Source of the DNA: Acidobacteriota bacterium
GTDB taxonomy: Bacteria; Acidobacteriota; Vicinamibacteria; Vicinamibacterales; SCN-69-37
Direction of reading: 5' to 3'
Length of the DNA: 43,312 bases
Assembly: GCA_024640135.1 (NCBI GenBank)
Contig: JAHEFO010000007.1
Location: 736 to 44,047 of the forward strand
The notes under the pieces are model-generated. The model was not told where the DNA came from and made no database searches. It saw only the letters and a program-made list of their open reading frames with translations. Below, piece by piece: positions 17,874-41,720 of this stretch. Both the position numbers and the translations under genes were made by a program. Position 1 is the first letter of the stretch; each line of letters starts with the position of its first letter.

Positions 17874-19240
17874 CCACTGCCTTCCTGCTGGTCGCCCTGC
17901 TGGCGCAGACCCCTCAATCGCGTCCCGCAGACGGACCCGCGCCCTACGGGCCCCTGGAAGGGCGGCCGTCGGTCGCTGACGCGTCGCCGCTGCAGCAGCG
18001 CGTTGACGCAGCGCAACCCGGCGACCGCATCGAGGTGCCGGCCGGATCGTATGTGGGCGATCTGTATGTGGACAAGCCCCTGCATCTGGTGGGCGTCGGG
18101 CGACCGCAGTTGGTGGGGTCGGGCTCGGGTAGCGTCGTGCGCATTCGGGCGGACCGCGTCACCATCGAGGGGTTTGACATCGACGGCCGGCTGGGCGGGA
18201 ATCTGGCGCGCGACTCGTCAGGCATCCACATCGCCGGCCGGTTGGCCCTCGTGCGCGACTGCCGGATCGTCCGCTCGCTGTTCGGTGTCTACCTGCGCGA
18301 GGCCGACGACTCGGTGGTCGAGGGCGTGACGATCACGGGGATCGAAGGCAAGGCGCCCGGTGAGCAGGGGTCGGGCATCCACGTGTGGAACACCCTGCGG
18401 TTCACGCTGCGCGGAAATACCATTCGGTTTACGCGCGACGGGTTCTACATTCAGTCATCCCACTATGGATTGGTGACGGGCAACCGGGTGAGCCAGATTC
18501 GGTACGGCCTGCACTACATGTACTCGGATGACAACCGCTTCGAAGACAACGTGTTCGAACAGGGCGCGGCAGGCGCAGCGCTGATGTTTTCGCGCCGCCT
18601 GGTCTTTGCGCGCAACCAGTTCATCCATAACCGCGGGTTCGCCTCGGTGGGCCTGCTGCTGAAAGATTGCGAGGACGTGACGGCGGTCGACAATCTCGTC
18701 GCCGACAACCAGCGCGGGTTTCTGATCGATGGCGCCATTCGCCATGTGTTCCGCCATAACGTCGTAGCGACCTCCGACGTGGCGATCGTGATCTACGACT
18801 CCTCCAGTGAAAACCGTTTCGAAGAGAACACATTCGTCGGGAACCTCGCGCCCCTGCTTCTGGTGGGACGCCGCACCGATACAGTGTTCGAACGAAACTA
18901 CTGGGAGAACTTCCACGAGCCGGACCTTGACGGCGATGGCGTCCGGGACCAGCCCTACCGGCTCTCGAATGTGTTCGATCATCTTCGGGGCAATCTGGTG
19001 GCGGCGGACCTGTTGGCACAGGGGATCGGTGCCGCCGTGCTCGCCCGTGCCGAGCAGGCGTTTCCCGTGCTTCGCCCCATCTCGGTGGTCGACGAGCATC
19101 CGCTGGTTCGGGCACCGGAACGGGGCGACATCCCCCGGATGCCCCAGGAGAATCCGCGCGGCGCCCGCGCCGGGCTCCTGGTTTCCGCGCTGGGGCTGTG
19201 CCTTGGAGTGATCGGGCTGAGGGCCGGGAGGCGGCGATGA
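17870..19240 (+). CDS. nosD: Periplasmic copper-chaperone-like protein NosD
   Basis: 456 residues from GTG 17870, overlapping the previous stop (GTGA). A short signal peptide leads into a right-handed parallel beta-helix (repeats such as GSGIHVWNTLRFTLRGNTI, NRFEDNVFEQG, NRFEENTFVGN), the pectate-lyase-like CASH fold typical of NosD. Near the C-terminus is a hydrophobic segment (LLVSALGLCLGVIGL) followed by RAGRRR, which would keep it at the membrane. NosD works with NosF and NosY to deliver sulfide or copper for CuZ assembly. The order D-F-L-Y is typical of nos clusters. Confidence 0.93.
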   Translation: MTTAFLLVALLAQTPQSRPADGPAPYGPLEGRPSVADASPLQQRVDAAQPGDRIEVPAGSYVGDLYVDKPLHLVGVGRPQLVGSGSGSVVRIRADRVTIEGFDIDGRLGGNLARDSSGIHIAGRLALVRDCRIVRSLFGVYLREADDSVVEGVTITGIEGKAPGEQGSGIHVWNTLRFTLRGNTIRFTRDGFYIQSSHYGLVTGNRVSQIRYGLHYMYSDDNRFEDNVFEQGAAGAALMFSRRLVFARNQFIHNRGFASVGLLLKDCEDVTAVDNLVADNQRGFLIDGAIRHVFRHNVVATSDVAIVIYDSSSENRFEENTFVGNLAPLLLVGRRTDTVFERNYWENFHEPDLDGDGVRDQPYRLSNVFDHLRGNLVAADLLAQGIGAAVLARAEQAFPVLRPISVVDEHPLVRAPERGDIPRMPQENPRGARAGLLVSALGLCLGVIGLRAGRRR

Positions 19241-35468: not shown

Positions 35469-36566
35469 TCAGGCCGGGCCATGGGAAGTCGGGCCGCCGG
35501 CGCGGCCAAAGAGGTAGTGCGACACGATCCATTCGTCGCCGCCGCGGTAGCCCCAGGATTCAGCGCAGGCCATGAAGAACAGCCGCCAGCGCACGAACCA
35601 GCGAAGCGCCTCGCCGGCGCCGTACACCTGCGCGAACAGCTTGAGAAGTTCGCTGCGGTGCTGGTCCATGTTGGCCAGCCACGCTTCAGCCGTCTGCTGG
35701 TAGTGCCGGCCGCTCACCACCCAATGGTCGCGCACGGACAAGTCATCCTGAAAGTAGAGCAACAGATCATCGCTGGGCATCTGGCCCCCGGTGAAGAAGT
35801 GTTCCGCCATCCAGTCACCAGCGTCACGGACTTCAAAGGGATAGGCAAAACGGCGATGCGTGAAGATGTGCGTGAACAGCAGGCTGTCCGAGTGCATCCA
35901 CGACGCCACTTTGCGGAACAGTTGCTGGTAGTTGCGGACGTGTTCCATCATCTCCACCGACACGATCCGGTCGAAGACCTGGCCGGCCTCGAACGTGTTG
36001 ATGTCCGCAGTGAGGATGTCGATGTTGCCGAGGCCGCGTTGCCGCGCCTGCGCCTCGATGAACTGACGCTGCGACTGAGAGTTCGACACGCCGGTGACGC
36101 GGCTGTTGGGAAAACGCGCGGCGGCATAGAGCGCGAAGGCGCCCCAGCCGCAGCCCAGGTCCAAGATCCGTTGGCCGTCAGAAAGTTGCGCCCGTTCTGC
36201 CGTCAGGTCGAGCATGCGCTGTTCGGCCATGTCCAGGGTGTCGCCGCTCTGCCAGAGTCCGCAGCTGTACTTGCGATGACGACCCAGCACCTGTCCGAAG
36301 AAGTCGGCCGGTACCTCGTAGTGCTGCTCGTTCGCCGCCGGCGTGTGGACCGCGATGGGACTGGCCTTCAGCCGCGCGACATACCGCAGCAGGTGGGCCC
36401 GCTGACGCTCGGTGGTCCCTTTGTCTTCCTCGCGCAACCGGCCTGTCAGCAGACGGCGGATGCCGGATCTGAGAATCCAGTCGGGGACCAGGTCGCGTTC
36501 GACCAACGCCTCGTACCATGGCGCCTCCCGGTGACGGATTTCCTGTTCGATGGTTGTTGTTGCCAT
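35469..36566 (-). CDS. Cyclopropane-fatty-acid-synthase-like SAM methyltransferase (UfaM/CNMT-like)
   Basis: 365 residues from ATG 36566 (GGAG upstream; start one base after the stop of the CarH-like gene). The core is [17 protein letters not shown], then [16 protein letters not shown] (SAM motif I), [12 protein letters not shown] and [17 protein letters not shown], the CFA-synthase family catalytic layout. It lacks the N-terminal domain of true CfaA. This shorter form resembles bacterial UfaM and plant coclaurine N-methyltransferase-like proteins. UfaM-type enzymes methylate unsaturated acyl chains in membrane phospholipids, which fits the desaturase and flavoprotein opposite. The name is by resemblance only. 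Confidence 0.85.
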
Positions 36567-36567
36567 G

Positions 36568-37473
36568 TCATGGTCTCCAGTCCCGGCACGCCTCGTCGAA
36601 TGCCGGCAGGTCAGCGAACGCGACCACAGGGCGGTCCACTTGTGAAAGGTCGAGTTGTGCCAGGCCGGCGCCGCCAAGCCACAAGCGGGTTGACAACGGC
36701 AGGGCGCCGGCCACGGTTTGCACCTCAGCCATCGTCTCGTCCGTGATGACGGTGATGCCGAGCAGGACCGCCTGCGCGTGCACGAGGCGGGCAGCGCGTG
36801 CCGTCTGGTCACCCGGGAGGTTGGCGCCAAGGTAGACCGGCTCGATGCCCGAGAGCGACGCAAGCATGGCGGCGGCCAGAATGCCGAACTCGTGCGACTC
36901 ATGCGCCGGCGTCGTCACCACGACCCTCCGCACCGGGGTGGTCGGCCGGAACAGGCGGGTCATGCTGCCGAGCAGATTGCGCAGCGCCTGAGAGACAAGA
37001 TGCTCCTGCGCAATGGCAAACTGGCCCTCGTGCCAGCGAGTGCCCACCTCCTGCATGAGCGGGACGACGGCCTGATAGATGAAGTCGCGGGGCGCGAGAA
37101 CAGCCGCCAGGCGCCCAAGTTCATCGCTGACGCGCGCCGCATCGAAGTTCTCGATCGCCAGGAGCACTGGCGTCAGACCGTCGGCTGGGGAAGTTGCTTG
37201 CGGCGCGACGGGCCGGTCTGACGGCCGCACGGCAAGAGCGTTCAGCGCGTCGAGATCTGCGTCCGACAGAGACGCGATGCTGCCAATGGCATGCCCGTTC
37301 TGAACCAGCGTGTTCAGCCGCTCGAGCCTGGCAATCTGCGCTGGACCGTATTGCCGCCCCCGACCCGAGCGTTCAGGCACGACGGCCTGATATCGTCGCT
37401 CCCAGGCACGCAGGGTGTCGGGACTGATGCCAGTGAGTTTCGCGACAGCGCGAATGGGGTAGCGGGTGTCCAT
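36568..37473 (-). CDS. MerR-family B12-dependent photoreceptor repressor (CarH/LitR-like)
   Basis: 301 residues. Residues 1-70 are a MerR DNA-binding domain ([24 protein letters not shown]). A four-helix cobalamin-capping domain has the CarH signature W-x9-EH: W147 and E157-H158, with H148 next to the Trp. The Rossmann cobalamin-binding domain has E192-x-H194-xx-G197. These match Thermus CarH W131, H132, E141, H142 and H177, that is the lower ligand and the residue that ligates cobalt after light. So it should bind adenosylcobalamin, tetramerise in the dark, repress and release DNA in light. Adjacent operator repeats and TTGACA-17-TATCTT promoter support autoregulation. Confidence 0.9.
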
Positions 37474-37501
37474 GTCCTCACGAAGATACGTTCTAGAGGA
37501 T

Positions 37502-37553
37502 CTCTTGTCAAGCGTTTGTCATGGACAAAGGCTTGACAAAGATAAGACAAATG
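37502..37553. promoter_or_regulatory. CarH-type operator with five 11-bp-spaced half-sites and divergent promoters
   Basis: GACAAA cores start at 37524, 37535 and 37546 on the plus strand, exactly 11 apart. Two more in the opposite direction (TTTGTC 37515-37520, CTTGTC 37504-37509) are also 11 apart, so the centre (37505-37539) is a near-perfect 35-base palindrome. Minus-strand promoter of the CarH gene: TTGACA 37511-37506, 17 bases, TATCTT 37488-37483, with the start only a few bases before ATG 37473. Plus-strand promoter options: TTGTCA 37516-37521 with GATAAG 37541-37546, or TTGACA 37533-37538 with a weak CAGGAT. Thermus CarH binds 11-bp direct repeats over a -35 box. Confidence 0.75.
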
Positions 37554-37568
37554 GTCAGGATACGTGCT

Positions 37569-38411
37569 ATGGAAGCTGACGTGAACGCTGCTTCGGGCTC
37601 TTCCGCGGGCAAAGACCGTTACCAGTTCGGGGCGGTCGTGTTCTTCGCCCTCCTGCATCTGGGTGTGGTGGCCATCTGGTGGACGCCGCCGACGGCGTCG
37701 CTCCTGGTGTGGTTAGTGGCGACGTACGCGGTGCGGATGTTCGGGGTGACCGCCGGCTATCACCGTTATTTCGGGCACCGGAGCTACCGGCTCGGCCGCG
37801 TTTCGCAGTTTGCGATGGCATTTCTGGCACAGACCTCGGCTCAGAAGGGGGTGCTGTGGTGGGCTGCGCATCACCGCCATCATCATCGCGAGTCGGACCA
37901 GGACGACGATGTGCACTCGCCTCACCGGCGCGGTTTCTGGTGGGCGCATGTGGGCTGGGTGCTGTCCAACGATTTCGACGACTACGATCCGTCCGCGGTC
38001 AGGGACTTTCAGCATTATCCGGAACTGGTGTGGCTCAATCGCAATCACTGGGTGCCGACGGTGGTGTTTGGCGCTGCGGTGGCGCTCGTCGGCGGCTGGC
38101 CGGCCTTTGTCTGGGGTTACATCGTTTCGACGGTGGTCCTCTATCACTGTACGTTCGCGATCAACTCACTCGCGCATCTGTGGGGCACACGCCGGTTCGA
38201 CACGGCGGATGAAAGCCGGAACAACTGGTGGCTGGCGGTGATCACGCTGGGCGAGGGGTGGCACAACAATCATCACTACTCGCCGGGCAGCTGCCGCCAG
38301 GGCCAGCGCTGGTGGGAGCTGGACATTACGTATCTCGCACTCCGGGTTTTGAGCTGGGTTGGCATCGCGCGTGACCTTCGTCCGTTCCGAAAGGCGCGGA
38401 CGACCCAATGA
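37569..38411 (+). CDS. Membrane acyl-lipid/acyl-CoA desaturase (fatty acid desaturase)
   Basis: 280 residues from ATG 37569 with AGGA upstream; an earlier ATG at 37521 lies inside the operator. The three histidine boxes of the stearoyl-CoA-type desaturases are present: HRYFGH, HHRHH and HNNHH, with membrane helices between and the usual LGEGWHNNHHYSPGSCRQG. It inserts a cis double bond (typically delta-9) into membrane acyl chains using a di-iron centre. It heads an operon with the flavoprotein, DUF1365 and CFA synthase genes, each overlapping the previous one. Confidence 0.93.
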   Translation: MEADVNAASGSSAGKDRYQFGAVVFFALLHLGVVAIWWTPPTASLLVWLVATYAVRMFGVTAGYHRYFGHRSYRLGRVSQFAMAFLAQTSAQKGVLWWAAHHRHHHRESDQDDDVHSPHRRGFWWAHVGWVLSNDFDDYDPSAVRDFQHYPELVWLNRNHWVPTVVFGAAVALVGGWPAFVWGYIVSTVVLYHCTFAINSLAHLWGTRRFDTADESRNNWWLAVITLGEGWHNNHHYSPGSCRQGQRWWELDITYLALRVLSWVGIARDLRPFRKARTTQ

Positions 38412-39673
38412 CGTCCGTGGTGCCGGCCAGACGGATCGCCGTGATTGGCTCGGGTATCGCCGGACTGTCGACGGCCTATTACCTCAGTCGCGCGCATGAG
38501 GTGCATGTGTTCGAGCGCGACTCGCGCGTGGGCGGCCACACGAACACCGTGATGGTGGACTCGCCCTCCGGTCCGGTGCCGATCGATACCGGGTTCATCG
38601 TCCACAACGAACGCACGTATCCCCGATTCTGCCGTCTCATGGCGGCACTTGGAGTGGAAACCCAGCCGAGCGACATGTCATTTGCCGTCACGACGCCTGG
38701 CGCCGCCTTCGAGTACTCGAGTCGTGGACTCCGGGGCTTTTTCGCGCAGCGGCGAAACCTGTTCTCGCCGCGCCACTACCATCTCCTCCGCGAAATCGTG
38801 CGTTTCAACCGCGAGGCGCCGGATGTCCTGAGCGACCCGGCGGGGGATGCCATGACGCTCGGTGAGTTTCTCGACAGGGGCCGCTACGCCCGGGTGTTTG
38901 TGGATCGGTACCTGGTGCCGATGGCCGGCGCCATCTGGTCCATGGCTCCAGACGTCATGCGGGAGTTTCCCGTGCTGACGCTCGTGCGGTTCATGCATCA
39001 TCACGGCATGCTGGGCCTCACCACTCATCCCGCCTGGAAGGTCATTCGGGGCGGCAGTCAGGCTTATCTCGCACCGCTGACCGCGCCGTTCCGCGACCGC
39101 ATCAGGACCGGCGTCACCATCACATCCGTGGATCGCGCGGACGATGGGGTGACGGTGCGGTTTTCCGATCGTCCGGAGGAACAGTTCGACGAGGTGGTGT
39201 TCGGGTGCCACGGAGATCAGATCCTGCCGCTGCTCGCGCATCCGACGGCCGCTGAACGCGACATCCTGGGGCACTTTCGCACCAGCCGTAATGAGACGTG
39301 CCTGCATACCGACGCATCACTGCTGCCCGGTCGTCCGGCGGCCCGGGCCTCGTGGAACTACCGGCTCGGAGACGCGGGACGGGTGACGGTGACCTACCAC
39401 ATGAACCGCCTGCAGTCGCTCACGACACGCGAGGACTATTGCGTGACGTTGAATGCCGACGACACCATTGATCCCGGCAGGGTCCTGCGCCGGATGGTGT
39501 ACGAGCATCCGCTTTACACCCGCGATGCCATCCGGGCCCAGGAGCGGTGGTCGGAAATCAGCGGGAAACACCGGACGCACTTCTGCGGCGCGTACTGGTT
39601 CTACGGGTTTCACGAAGATGGTGTCAGAAGCGGCATGCGCGTCGCCGAGGCGCTTGGAGTGGCCTGCACATGA
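38408..39673 (+). CDS. FAD-dependent oxidoreductase of the COG2907 flavin amine oxidase-like group
   Basis: 421 residues (ATGA overlap with the desaturase). The FAD motif IAVIGSGIAGLSTAYYL is at residues 10-26, followed by VFERDSRVGGHTNTV and the substrate-side DTGFIVHNERTYP. Proteins of this group sit beside CFA synthases and DUF1365 proteins in light- and oxidative-stress-induced lipid operons of many bacteria, and in alphaproteobacteria a member takes part in furan fatty acid synthesis (as I recall). Its likely role is acyl-chain desaturation or oxidation. The exact reaction here is not shown. Confidence 0.85.
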   Translation: MTSVVPARRIAVIGSGIAGLSTAYYLSRAHEVHVFERDSRVGGHTNTVMVDSPSGPVPIDTGFIVHNERTYPRFCRLMAALGVETQPSDMSFAVTTPGAAFEYSSRGLRGFFAQRRNLFSPRHYHLLREIVRFNREAPDVLSDPAGDAMTLGEFLDRGRYARVFVDRYLVPMAGAIWSMAPDVMREFPVLTLVRFMHHHGMLGLTTHPAWKVIRGGSQAYLAPLTAPFRDRIRTGVTITSVDRADDGVTVRFSDRPEEQFDEVVFGCHGDQILPLLAHPTAAERDILGHFRTSRNETCLHTDASLLPGRPAARASWNYRLGDAGRVTVTYHMNRLQSLTTREDYCVTLNADDTIDPGRVLRRMVYEHPLYTRDAIRAQERWSEISGKHRTHFCGAYWFYGFHEDGVRSGMRVAEALGVACT

Positions 39674-40470
39674 TTCCTGAACCGGGCCTGTACACGGGCA
39701 CGCTGCGGCATCGCCGATTCAGTCCGAGCGCCCATGGGTTCACCTATGGCCTCTTCATGGCGTGGCTCGACATTGACCGGATTCCAGAGATCATGGGTCG
39801 ATCGAGACTCACCAGTTACAACCGGTTCAACTGGGCGAGTTTTGACGAACGCGACCACCTCGGCGACCCGCAGCTGCCCCTGCGCGAACGGGTGACGCGC
39901 GACGCCCGCGCGAATGGGGTCGAACTGCCGGACGGCCCGATCTACCTGCTGACGCACCTGCGCTACCTGGGGTACTGCTTCAATCCCATCTCGTTCTACT
40001 TCTGCTACGACCGGCACGGCGCGCTTGCCATCGTGCTGGCTGAGGTGAACAGCACGTTCGGAGAACAGCGCAACTACTGGCTGACGTCCAAGAACCGGCT
40101 GCCTTCGCCCGGCACGTTCCGCTACCGGTGCGCCAAGACCATGCACGTCTCGCCCTTCATGGACATGGATCTCGACTACGAATTCGCCCTGTCCGAGCCG
40201 GGAGCCACGCTGGTGGCCCACATGGCCACACACGAGCGGGCCGCGTCACCCTCGGCTCCGTCACGCTTCGACGCCACGCTGACGCTGGCGCATCAGGCCT
40301 GGACGTCTCGAGGAATTCGCGCGGCGCTCCTGCGCCATCCCTGGATGACCGCCAGAGTGATCGTCGCCATTCACTGGCAGGCCCTGCGGCTGTACCTCAA
40401 GCGTGTCCCTGTCTTCACCCACCCGGCCCGCGTGCGGCCGCCGGATCCCGAGGCCACGAAACCATCATGA
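39670..40470 (+). CDS. DUF1365 family protein
   Basis: 266 residues from ATG 39670 (ATGA overlap). Family hallmarks: GTLRHRRFSPSAHGFTYGLFMAWLDIDR at the N-terminus, LLTHLRYLGYCFNPISFYFCYD, EVNSTFGEQRNYWL and the conserved KTMHVSPFMDMDLDYEF. Its biochemical role is unknown; it is nearly always found between the COG2907 flavoprotein and a CFA synthase, as here. An upstream extension of the frame overlaps the flavoprotein and is not used. Confidence 0.92.
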   Translation: MIPEPGLYTGTLRHRRFSPSAHGFTYGLFMAWLDIDRIPEIMGRSRLTSYNRFNWASFDERDHLGDPQLPLRERVTRDARANGVELPDGPIYLLTHLRYLGYCFNPISFYFCYDRHGALAIVLAEVNSTFGEQRNYWLTSKNRLPSPGTFRYRCAKTMHVSPFMDMDLDYEFALSEPGATLVAHMATHERAASPSAPSRFDATLTLAHQAWTSRGIRAALLRHPWMTARVIVAIHWQALRLYLKRVPVFTHPARVRPPDPEATKPS

Positions 40471-41720
40471 TCACATCCTACGCACAAACCACAGTCCTCC
40501 GGATGTTCGAACATCTGCGCCACGGCGCGCTGGAGGTGGTCTGCCCTGACCGCTCCTATGTCTTCGGCGACCCGGCGGCGGACCTGCAGGCCTGCATCGC
40601 CGTGCACGATCCACGCTTCTTCACGCGGCTCGTCTTCGGCGGAGACGATGCGGTTGGGGATGCGTACGTGGACGGCGACTGGTCGTCTCCGGACCTCGTG
40701 GCGGTCGTGCGACTGGCGGCGCGGAACCTGGCCACCCTCGAGGGGGGACACCCGTTCCTGTCGTTCGGCAGCCGCCTGTACCATCGCGCGCGCCACTGGA
40801 TGAACCGCAACACGGTGGCGGGCAGCCGGCGCAACATCGAGGCGCACTACGATCTCAGCAACGACTTCTTCCGGCTCTTCCTCGACCAGCGCATGGTGTA
40901 CTCGAGTGCGATCTACCGCAAGCCAGACGACTCGCTCGAACAGGCGCAGGTGGAGAAACTCGACCGCATCTGCCGCAAATTGCGTCTGGGTCCCAATGAC
41001 CACGTTCTGGAAATCGGCACCGGCTGGGGCGCGTTCGCGCTGCACGCGTCACGTCACTTCGGCTGCAGGGTCACCACCACCACGATCAGCCAGGAGCAGC
41101 ACGACGAGGCCCAGCGCCTGTTTGCCGGCGCCGGCGACGCGGGCGCGCGTATCACCTTGCTCCTCGAAGACTACCGGCAACTGCGCGGCACGTACTCCAG
41201 GATTGTCAGTATCGAGATGTTCGAGGCGGTCGGGCTCGAGTACTACGACACCTTCTTCGCCGCCTGCGACCGGCTTCTTGAGCCGGACGGATCGATGCTG
41301 ATGCAGGCGATCACGATGAACGAACACCGGTTCGACGCGTACCGGAAGCAGAGTGACTGGATCCAGCGCCGGATCTTCCCGGGGTCGCAGCTGGCATCCG
41401 TACGCGAGGTGCTCAACTCCCTCGTGCGCGCCACGCGGCTGTCAGCCTTTCACATGGAGGATATCGGGCTGCACTATGCGTTCACGCTGGCCGAGTGGCG
41501 GCGACGGTTCCACGCGTCGAATGACCAGGTGCGCGCGCTGGGGTTTGATGAGGCATTCTGCCGGATGTGGGACTACTATCTCGCGTACTGCGAGGGGGCC
41601 TTTCGCGAACGGCACATCGGCAACGTCCAGCTGCTGCTGACGAAGAACGCGAACCCGGCTGCTCTCCACGGCGAGCCCTGGGGGATCGCCGCGACGCCCG
41701 TGACCACGCCCACGGTCTGA
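40467..41720 (+). CDS. cfa: Cyclopropane-fatty-acyl-phospholipid synthase
   Basis: 417 residues from ATG 40467 (ATGA overlap). It has the N-terminal substrate domain missing in the other CFA-like protein (residues 1-125), then IEAHYDLSNDFFRLFLDQRMVYSSAIY, SAM motif LEIGTGWGAFALHASRHFG, TTTISQEQHDEA and IVSIEMFEAVGLEYY. It transfers a methylene group from SAM to cis-unsaturated phospholipid acyl chains. As the last gene of the desaturase operon it acts on the desaturase product. The gene is convergent with the DUF1295 gene, six bases between stops. Confidence 0.93.
   Translation: MITSYAQTTVLRMFEHLRHGALEVVCPDRSYVFGDPAADLQACIAVHDPRFFTRLVFGGDDAVGDAYVDGDWSSPDLVAVVRLAARNLATLEGGHPFLSFGSRLYHRARHWMNRNTVAGSRRNIEAHYDLSNDFFRLFLDQRMVYSSAIYRKPDDSLEQAQVEKLDRICRKLRLGPNDHVLEIGTGWGAFALHASRHFGCRVTTTTISQEQHDEAQRLFAGAGDAGARITLLLEDYRQLRGTYSRIVSIEMFEAVGLEYYDTFFAACDRLLEPDGSMLMQAITMNEHRFDAYRKQSDWIQRRIFPGSQLASVREVLNSLVRATRLSAFHMEDIGLHYAFTLAEWRRRFHASNDQVRALGFDEAFCRMWDYYLAYCEGAFRERHIGNVQLLLTKNANPAALHGEPWGIAATPVTTPTV

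Follow-up and report, generated by a model that had tools for sequence, protein, structure and literature searches.

A conserved mirrored arrangement of CarH-type half-sites between a CarH/LitR regulator gene and a putative furan-lipid operon in an Acidobacteriota genome

Introduction

Published CarH operators consist of tandem 11-bp TnnACA repeats that point in one direction, three in Thermus and four in Bacillus megaterium (PMC9304148, PMC8156234). Can such repeats also be mirrored, so that one site serves two divergent promoters? The question is raised by a 43,312-nucleotide stretch of contig JAHEFO010000007.1 from an Acidobacteriota bacterium (the window), in which an initial annotation had pointed out five GACAA copies between a CarH-like repressor gene and a lipid operon. 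We consider it likely that a 35-bp dyad in this region is the operator of the adjacent CarH/LitR protein, which would repress both divergent promoters in the dark and release them in the light, controlling furan (or related) lipids. What we show by computation is the site with its conservation and LitR dependence, together with both promoters and the photoreceptor motifs. The features of the locus are as follows.

35469–36566, minus strand: cyclopropane-synthase-like (CMAS-like) methyltransferase, directly behind litR
36568–37473, minus strand: CarH/LitR regulator (MerR HTH, B12-binding_2, B12-binding), with Wx9EH and ExHxxG (ESHEFG) motifs
37483–37488, minus strand: -10 box TATCTT of the litR promoter, spacer 17
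37505–37539, no strand assigned: candidate dyad operator, 35 bp; 11-bp-spaced half-sites, two in each arm, the arms mirroring each other across a 3-bp centre
37506–37511, minus strand: outer left half-site TTGACA, predicted -35 box of the litR promoter (from the sequence and the -10 boxes in related sites)
37517–37522, minus strand: inner left half-site ATGACA, degenerate for TnnACA
37522–37527, plus strand: inner right half-site TGGACA, full TnnACA, sharing the central base pair
37533–37538, plus strand: outer right half-site TTGACA, predicted -35 box of the lipid-operon promoter
37544–37550, plus strand: fifth copy AAGACAA, 11-bp-phased, non-conserved (absent in the relatives L003 and L004)
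37556–37561, plus strand: proposed -10 box CAGGAT of the lipid-operon promoter, spacer 17, weak match
37569–38411, plus strand: fatty acid desaturase, gene 1 of the lipid operon
38408–39673, plus strand: FAD-dependent oxidoreductase, UfaD-like
39670–40470, plus strand: DUF1365 protein, UfaO-like
40461–41720, plus strand: CMAS-family methyltransferase, UfaM-like or cyclopropane synthase

Results

The regulator and the genes on both sides

The regulator was described initially as CarH-like, and its domains and motifs bear this out. It matches MerR_1 (6e-16) and both B12 domains, B12-binding_2 (3e-11) and B12-binding (8e-5, below the gathering score), and its best relatives in the PDB are the Thermus CarH/LitR structures (E-values of 6e-21 to 8e-21). 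Wx9EH and ExHxxG, the signature motifs of class I CarH/LitR photoreceptor-repressors, are both present. The NCBIfam CarH equivalog model gives 92.9 bits against a cut-off of 400, so the protein is a relative rather than an NCBI-defined CarH equivalog; that cut-off is a naming rule and describes no mechanistic feature. A second B12-binding regulator-like protein of the same genome (L002, G000:C247:7815-8228) is ∼31% identical to LitR and carries the motifs WASGQLTIAEEH and DDHTLG.

In Rhodobacter, three proteins are enough for furan fatty acid formation, namely the fatty-acyl methylase UfaM, the phytoene-desaturase-related FAD desaturase UfaD and the DUF1365 protein UfaO (PMC7380195). The plus-strand operon of the window brings CMAS, FAD oxidoreductase and DUF1365 genes together, with matches to the Ufa proteins at the family level. 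Judged by families and gene order, it probably makes furan fatty acids. The enzyme types correspond to those of the Rhodobacter sphaeroides pathway (ufaM, ufaD, ufaO; PMC7380195), in which, however, furan products rise on loss of ChrR and no CarH operator is involved.

Layout of the dyad

All five GACAA copies are present as the initial annotation had listed them, two inverted (TTGTC, at 37505 and 37516) and three direct (37524, 37535 and 37546). They were thought to share a single 11-bp register. Neighbouring copies of one arm are indeed 11 bp apart, but only 8 bp separate the starts of the two inner copies (37516 and 37524), and the inverted pair therefore lies outside the register of the direct copies. 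Nor do the five copies appear to form one functional set, since the conserved unit comprises four, TTGTC-N6-TTGTC-N3-GACAA-N6-GACAA, with the half-sites of both arms pointing outward. The fifth copy extends the right arm by a further 11 bp, so that the operon strand reads full-full-degenerate tandem repeats, while most relatives keep just two per arm. The nearest relatives (L003 and L004) lack a copy at the position of 37546, and on this comparison the fifth copy is additional and lineage-specific.

The dyad reads TTGTCAAGCGTTTGTC ATG GACAAAGGCTTGACAA, and its 16-bp arms differ by one mismatch. With up to three mismatches allowed, the 35-bp four-copy pattern matches the window once and none of 100 shuffles; at the same tolerance this is also the sole match in the 4.3-Mb genome, where no further dyads that would indicate a wider regulon were found. 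The operator contains three full TnnACA half-sites and one degenerate half-site, and the outer two double as predicted -35 boxes. Elsewhere in the window, two GACAA pairs with 15-bp spacing (18530–18549 and 18689–18708) lie outside the CarH register.

Conservation and dependence on LitR

Relatives of the locus were found by a search with the LitR protein alone, and those with 40% identity or more were taken as well matched. When enough flanking sequence is included, 21 of the 23 well-matched LitR loci have the four-copy dyad with identical spacing; the fourth copy is degenerate in one of these (G116). The two remaining loci, one ending near a contig edge (L018) and one whose LitR gene does not adjoin the operon (L121), contain no respaced arms. 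In the comparison suggested by the initial annotation, the same intergenic region retains the dyad layout in relatives that keep the gene order, and the loss of spacing that would have spoken against its reading was not seen. An independent search with an exact 20-base pattern across 84,980 genomes yielded 35 dyads, all beside a LitR gene, a furan-lipid operon or both, and a reversed control pattern had no match in 396 genomes of the phylum. The dyad recurs in dozens of bacteria from soil and lakes, labelled among others as Acidobacteriota, Gemmatimonadota, Opitutaceae and Betaproteobacteria, although most are metagenome bins whose labels may be wrong.

The dependence on LitR was assessed in relatives with a UfaO/UfaD operon and readable upstream DNA. 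A dyad precedes the operon in 16 of 16 cases with a linked LitR gene and in none of 24 without one; two further dyad-bearing operons, in G063 and G103, have LitR on another contig (Fisher p 9e-10, a value that ignores kinship among statistically non-independent relatives). The dyad therefore tracks the regulator, not the operon, and the count with LitR in the genome is 18 of 18. Among the controls lacking LitR, three genomes of the same genus (G001, G003 and G005) keep the operon and have neither a full LitR nor a dyad. In one of them (G001, locus L128, 8375–8683) a short MerR-like gene lies beside the furan-lipid operon and is possibly a replacement regulator.

The photoreceptor signature is less constant than the operator. 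Wx9EH and the cobalamin motif are kept in most linked LitRs of relatives; in the dyad-bearing Gemmatimonadaceae (Roseisolibacter and Gemmatirosa), LitR lacks the B12/light motifs, and a dyad therefore points to a LitR site but is no proof by itself that light is sensed. Plasmid 2 of Gemmatirosa kalamazoonensis (L087) has three dyads (at 789, 2901 and 3947) in 3.2 kb around a LitR gene without Wx9EH and the cobalamin motif, possibly a B12-independent offshoot that uses the same operator.

Gene content next to the dyad also varies. Many relatives (L007, L012, L020, L053 and others) have a membrane protein gene between dyad and litR, sometimes accompanied by the methyltransferase gene and a DUF1295 gene. 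We take this membrane protein to be DUF2177-like.

Half-sites and divergent promoters

Half-sites and promoter elements were counted in 50 non-redundant dyad sites, and the -10 positions had not been used in finding these sites. With litR oriented on the right, a full TnnACA is found 48 times at the outer left, 39 at the inner left, 9 at the inner right and 45 at the outer right position. By this measure, the half-sites match the 11-bp TnnACA grammar of CarH repeats. All 50 dyads have A or T as their central base, though the flanks are 60% GC. It can be the T of just one inner half-site, usually the operon-side one, and for this reason most dyads consist of three full repeats and one degenerate repeat. 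A third repeat at +11 bp occurs on either side in ∼7 of 100 arms, compared to ∼1 expected from other offsets.

The window promoters read TTGACA-N17-TATCTT towards litR and TTGACA-N17-CAGGAT towards the operon. On the litR side, TAnnnT follows the outer TTGACA in 41 of the 50 sites (34 with a 17-bp and 7 with an 18-bp spacer), and on the operon side TAnnnn does so in 34 (26 and 8, respectively). Each of the other spacers from 10 to 25 bp gives only 0 to 7 matches to a -10 box. The two divergent promoters thus have their -35 boxes in the outer copies, consistent with the earlier proposal that the repeats cover both -35 boxes. The distance from the -10 box to the start codon is 9 bases for litR (37473–37488) and 7 for the desaturase (37556–37571), and in many relatives start codons cluster 6–9 bases past the box. 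With such distances, both mRNAs may be leaderless or nearly so.

The host

The host had been described as a likely non-phototroph, in agreement with our finding that no photosynthetic reaction-centre protein was detected in the 98%-complete draft genome. It has only two SQS_PSY genes, located beside HpnE; one is HpnC (above the cut-off), and the other matches HpnD best (257 bits, cut-off 279). Both belong to a squalene HpnCDE cluster, and carotenoids were rejected as the light target on these grounds. Given the lack of a detected reaction centre and the assignment of the SQS_PSY genes, the host is likely, within the limits of such a draft, neither phototrophic nor able to make carotenoids. Its genome encodes a PduO-type adenosyltransferase, and no BtuR-type enzyme was found there.

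Discussion

Comparison with known CarH/LitR operators

The closest parallel is the Thermus thermophilus carH-crtB operator, where 11-bp TnnACA repeats lie between a divergent gene pair that includes a homologous regulator, and a TTGACA repeat forms a -35 box (PMC9304148). Our scan recovered the three known repeats in strain HB27, as expected from the initial description of direct repeats on one side, and found no dyad there. Each arm of the window site resembles the first two Thermus repeats, the second of which is the -35 box. However, Thermus has three one-way repeats, compared to two per mirrored arm here, and its targets are carotenoid and photolyase genes rather than lipid genes.

Other operators share individual aspects. 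In Sorangium and Haliangium (Sorangiineae and Nannocystineae), one CarH operator with mixed full and degenerate repeats has been proposed for divergent promoters (PMC9304148), but these repeats are tandem and point in one direction. Some Bacillus operators are reported to have three full repeats and one degenerate repeat, as here, although in our case they are mirrored. In the CarA/CarH operator of Myxococcus xanthus, inverted repeats precede and overlap a -35 box; the authors of that work conclude a direct-repeat reading, and the palindromes are degenerate in relatives, unlike the dyad. The class II LitR proteins of Pseudomonas (PplR/PmlR) are also LitR-family repressors, with light-inducible genes that include ufaM (PMC9758184), but they use a LOV partner in place of B12 and the consensus TGTACA-N12-TGTACA. 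We rejected the dyad as an instance of this consensus, which separates TGT and ACA by N18 rather than the N16 seen here.

A two-way operator had been considered distinctive. Divergent control as such is not, having been proposed for Sorangium (PMC9304148), whereas the 2+2 mirrored layout and the target genes look new; in the open-licence papers searched, we came across no account of a mirrored CarH operator. Among these papers, the locus looks like a reuse of the known 11-bp TnnACA grammar in mirrored orientation.

Alternative explanations

The dyad might instead be read by ordinary antiparallel MerR-type dimers, which would recognize TTGTC-N14-GACAA (two overlapping sites) or the inner TTGTC-N3-GACAA rather than tandem 11-bp repeats. 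The near-perfect palindrome, the inter-arm gap that is the same in all canonical sites and the exact spacing at 21 of 23 loci, with no respaced arms at the other two, would all fit such dimers, as would the usual preference of MerR proteins for palindromes (PMC8156234). Nevertheless, myxobacterial CarH and even CarA bind direct repeats despite palindromes (PMC9304148), and the excess of third repeats 11 bp further out is at the offset of the tandem reading. We regard this alternative as unlikely, though it is the most serious of those considered. An operator of LitR that responds to a signal other than light, either B12-independent or through another ligand or an anti-repressor, seems less probable still: CarA and class II LitR are known B12-independent forms, and the LitR that accompanies the dyad in Gemmatirosa and Roseisolibacter has neither motif, but the window LitR and nearly all linked LitRs retain both.

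It is highly improbable that the dyad simply reflects two back-to-back sigma-70 promoters or that it is bound by another factor instead. Both outer half-sites are consensus -35 boxes, yet the inner half-sites are equally conserved and are no promoter elements, and none of the 24 comparable operons without linked LitR has a dyad.

Proposed mechanism and significance

We thus favor the view that the neighbouring CarH/LitR protein uses the dyad as its operator. Carrying adenosylcobalamin in the dark, LitR would sit on the four outward half-sites, either as a pair of head-to-tail dimers or as a single tetramer. Both -35 boxes would then be masked, and neither litR with its methyltransferase gene, to one side, nor the desaturase-UfaD-UfaO-UfaM operon, to the other, would be expressed. 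On illumination, adenosylcobalamin would be cleaved, LitR would leave and both sides would be transcribed. The resulting products would be furan fatty acids or related methyl-branched ones, which presumably protect the membrane from singlet oxygen. LitR binding, repression, the light response and the lipid product are steps that we infer. Published CarH repeats point one way, and their mirrored use in the dyad is our proposal; the rigid 3-bp centre, with its constant inter-arm gap, suggests a contact across it. A bolder extension, offered tentatively, is that the dyad represents a second, mirror-symmetric mode of CarH recognition, in which one assembly across the rigid 3-bp centre locks both promoters and switches on a furan fatty acid light shield in non-carotenoid non-phototrophs.

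Such an operator would add a conserved mirrored form to a CarH operator code made up so far of one-directional tandem repeats, and would provide a well-defined 35-bp DNA for asking how a head-to-tail tetramer reads a palindrome. As a compact two-way light switch, it may also be of interest to builders of light-controlled genes. For the Acidobacteriota, it would tie a B12 light sensor to furan-fatty-acid genes.
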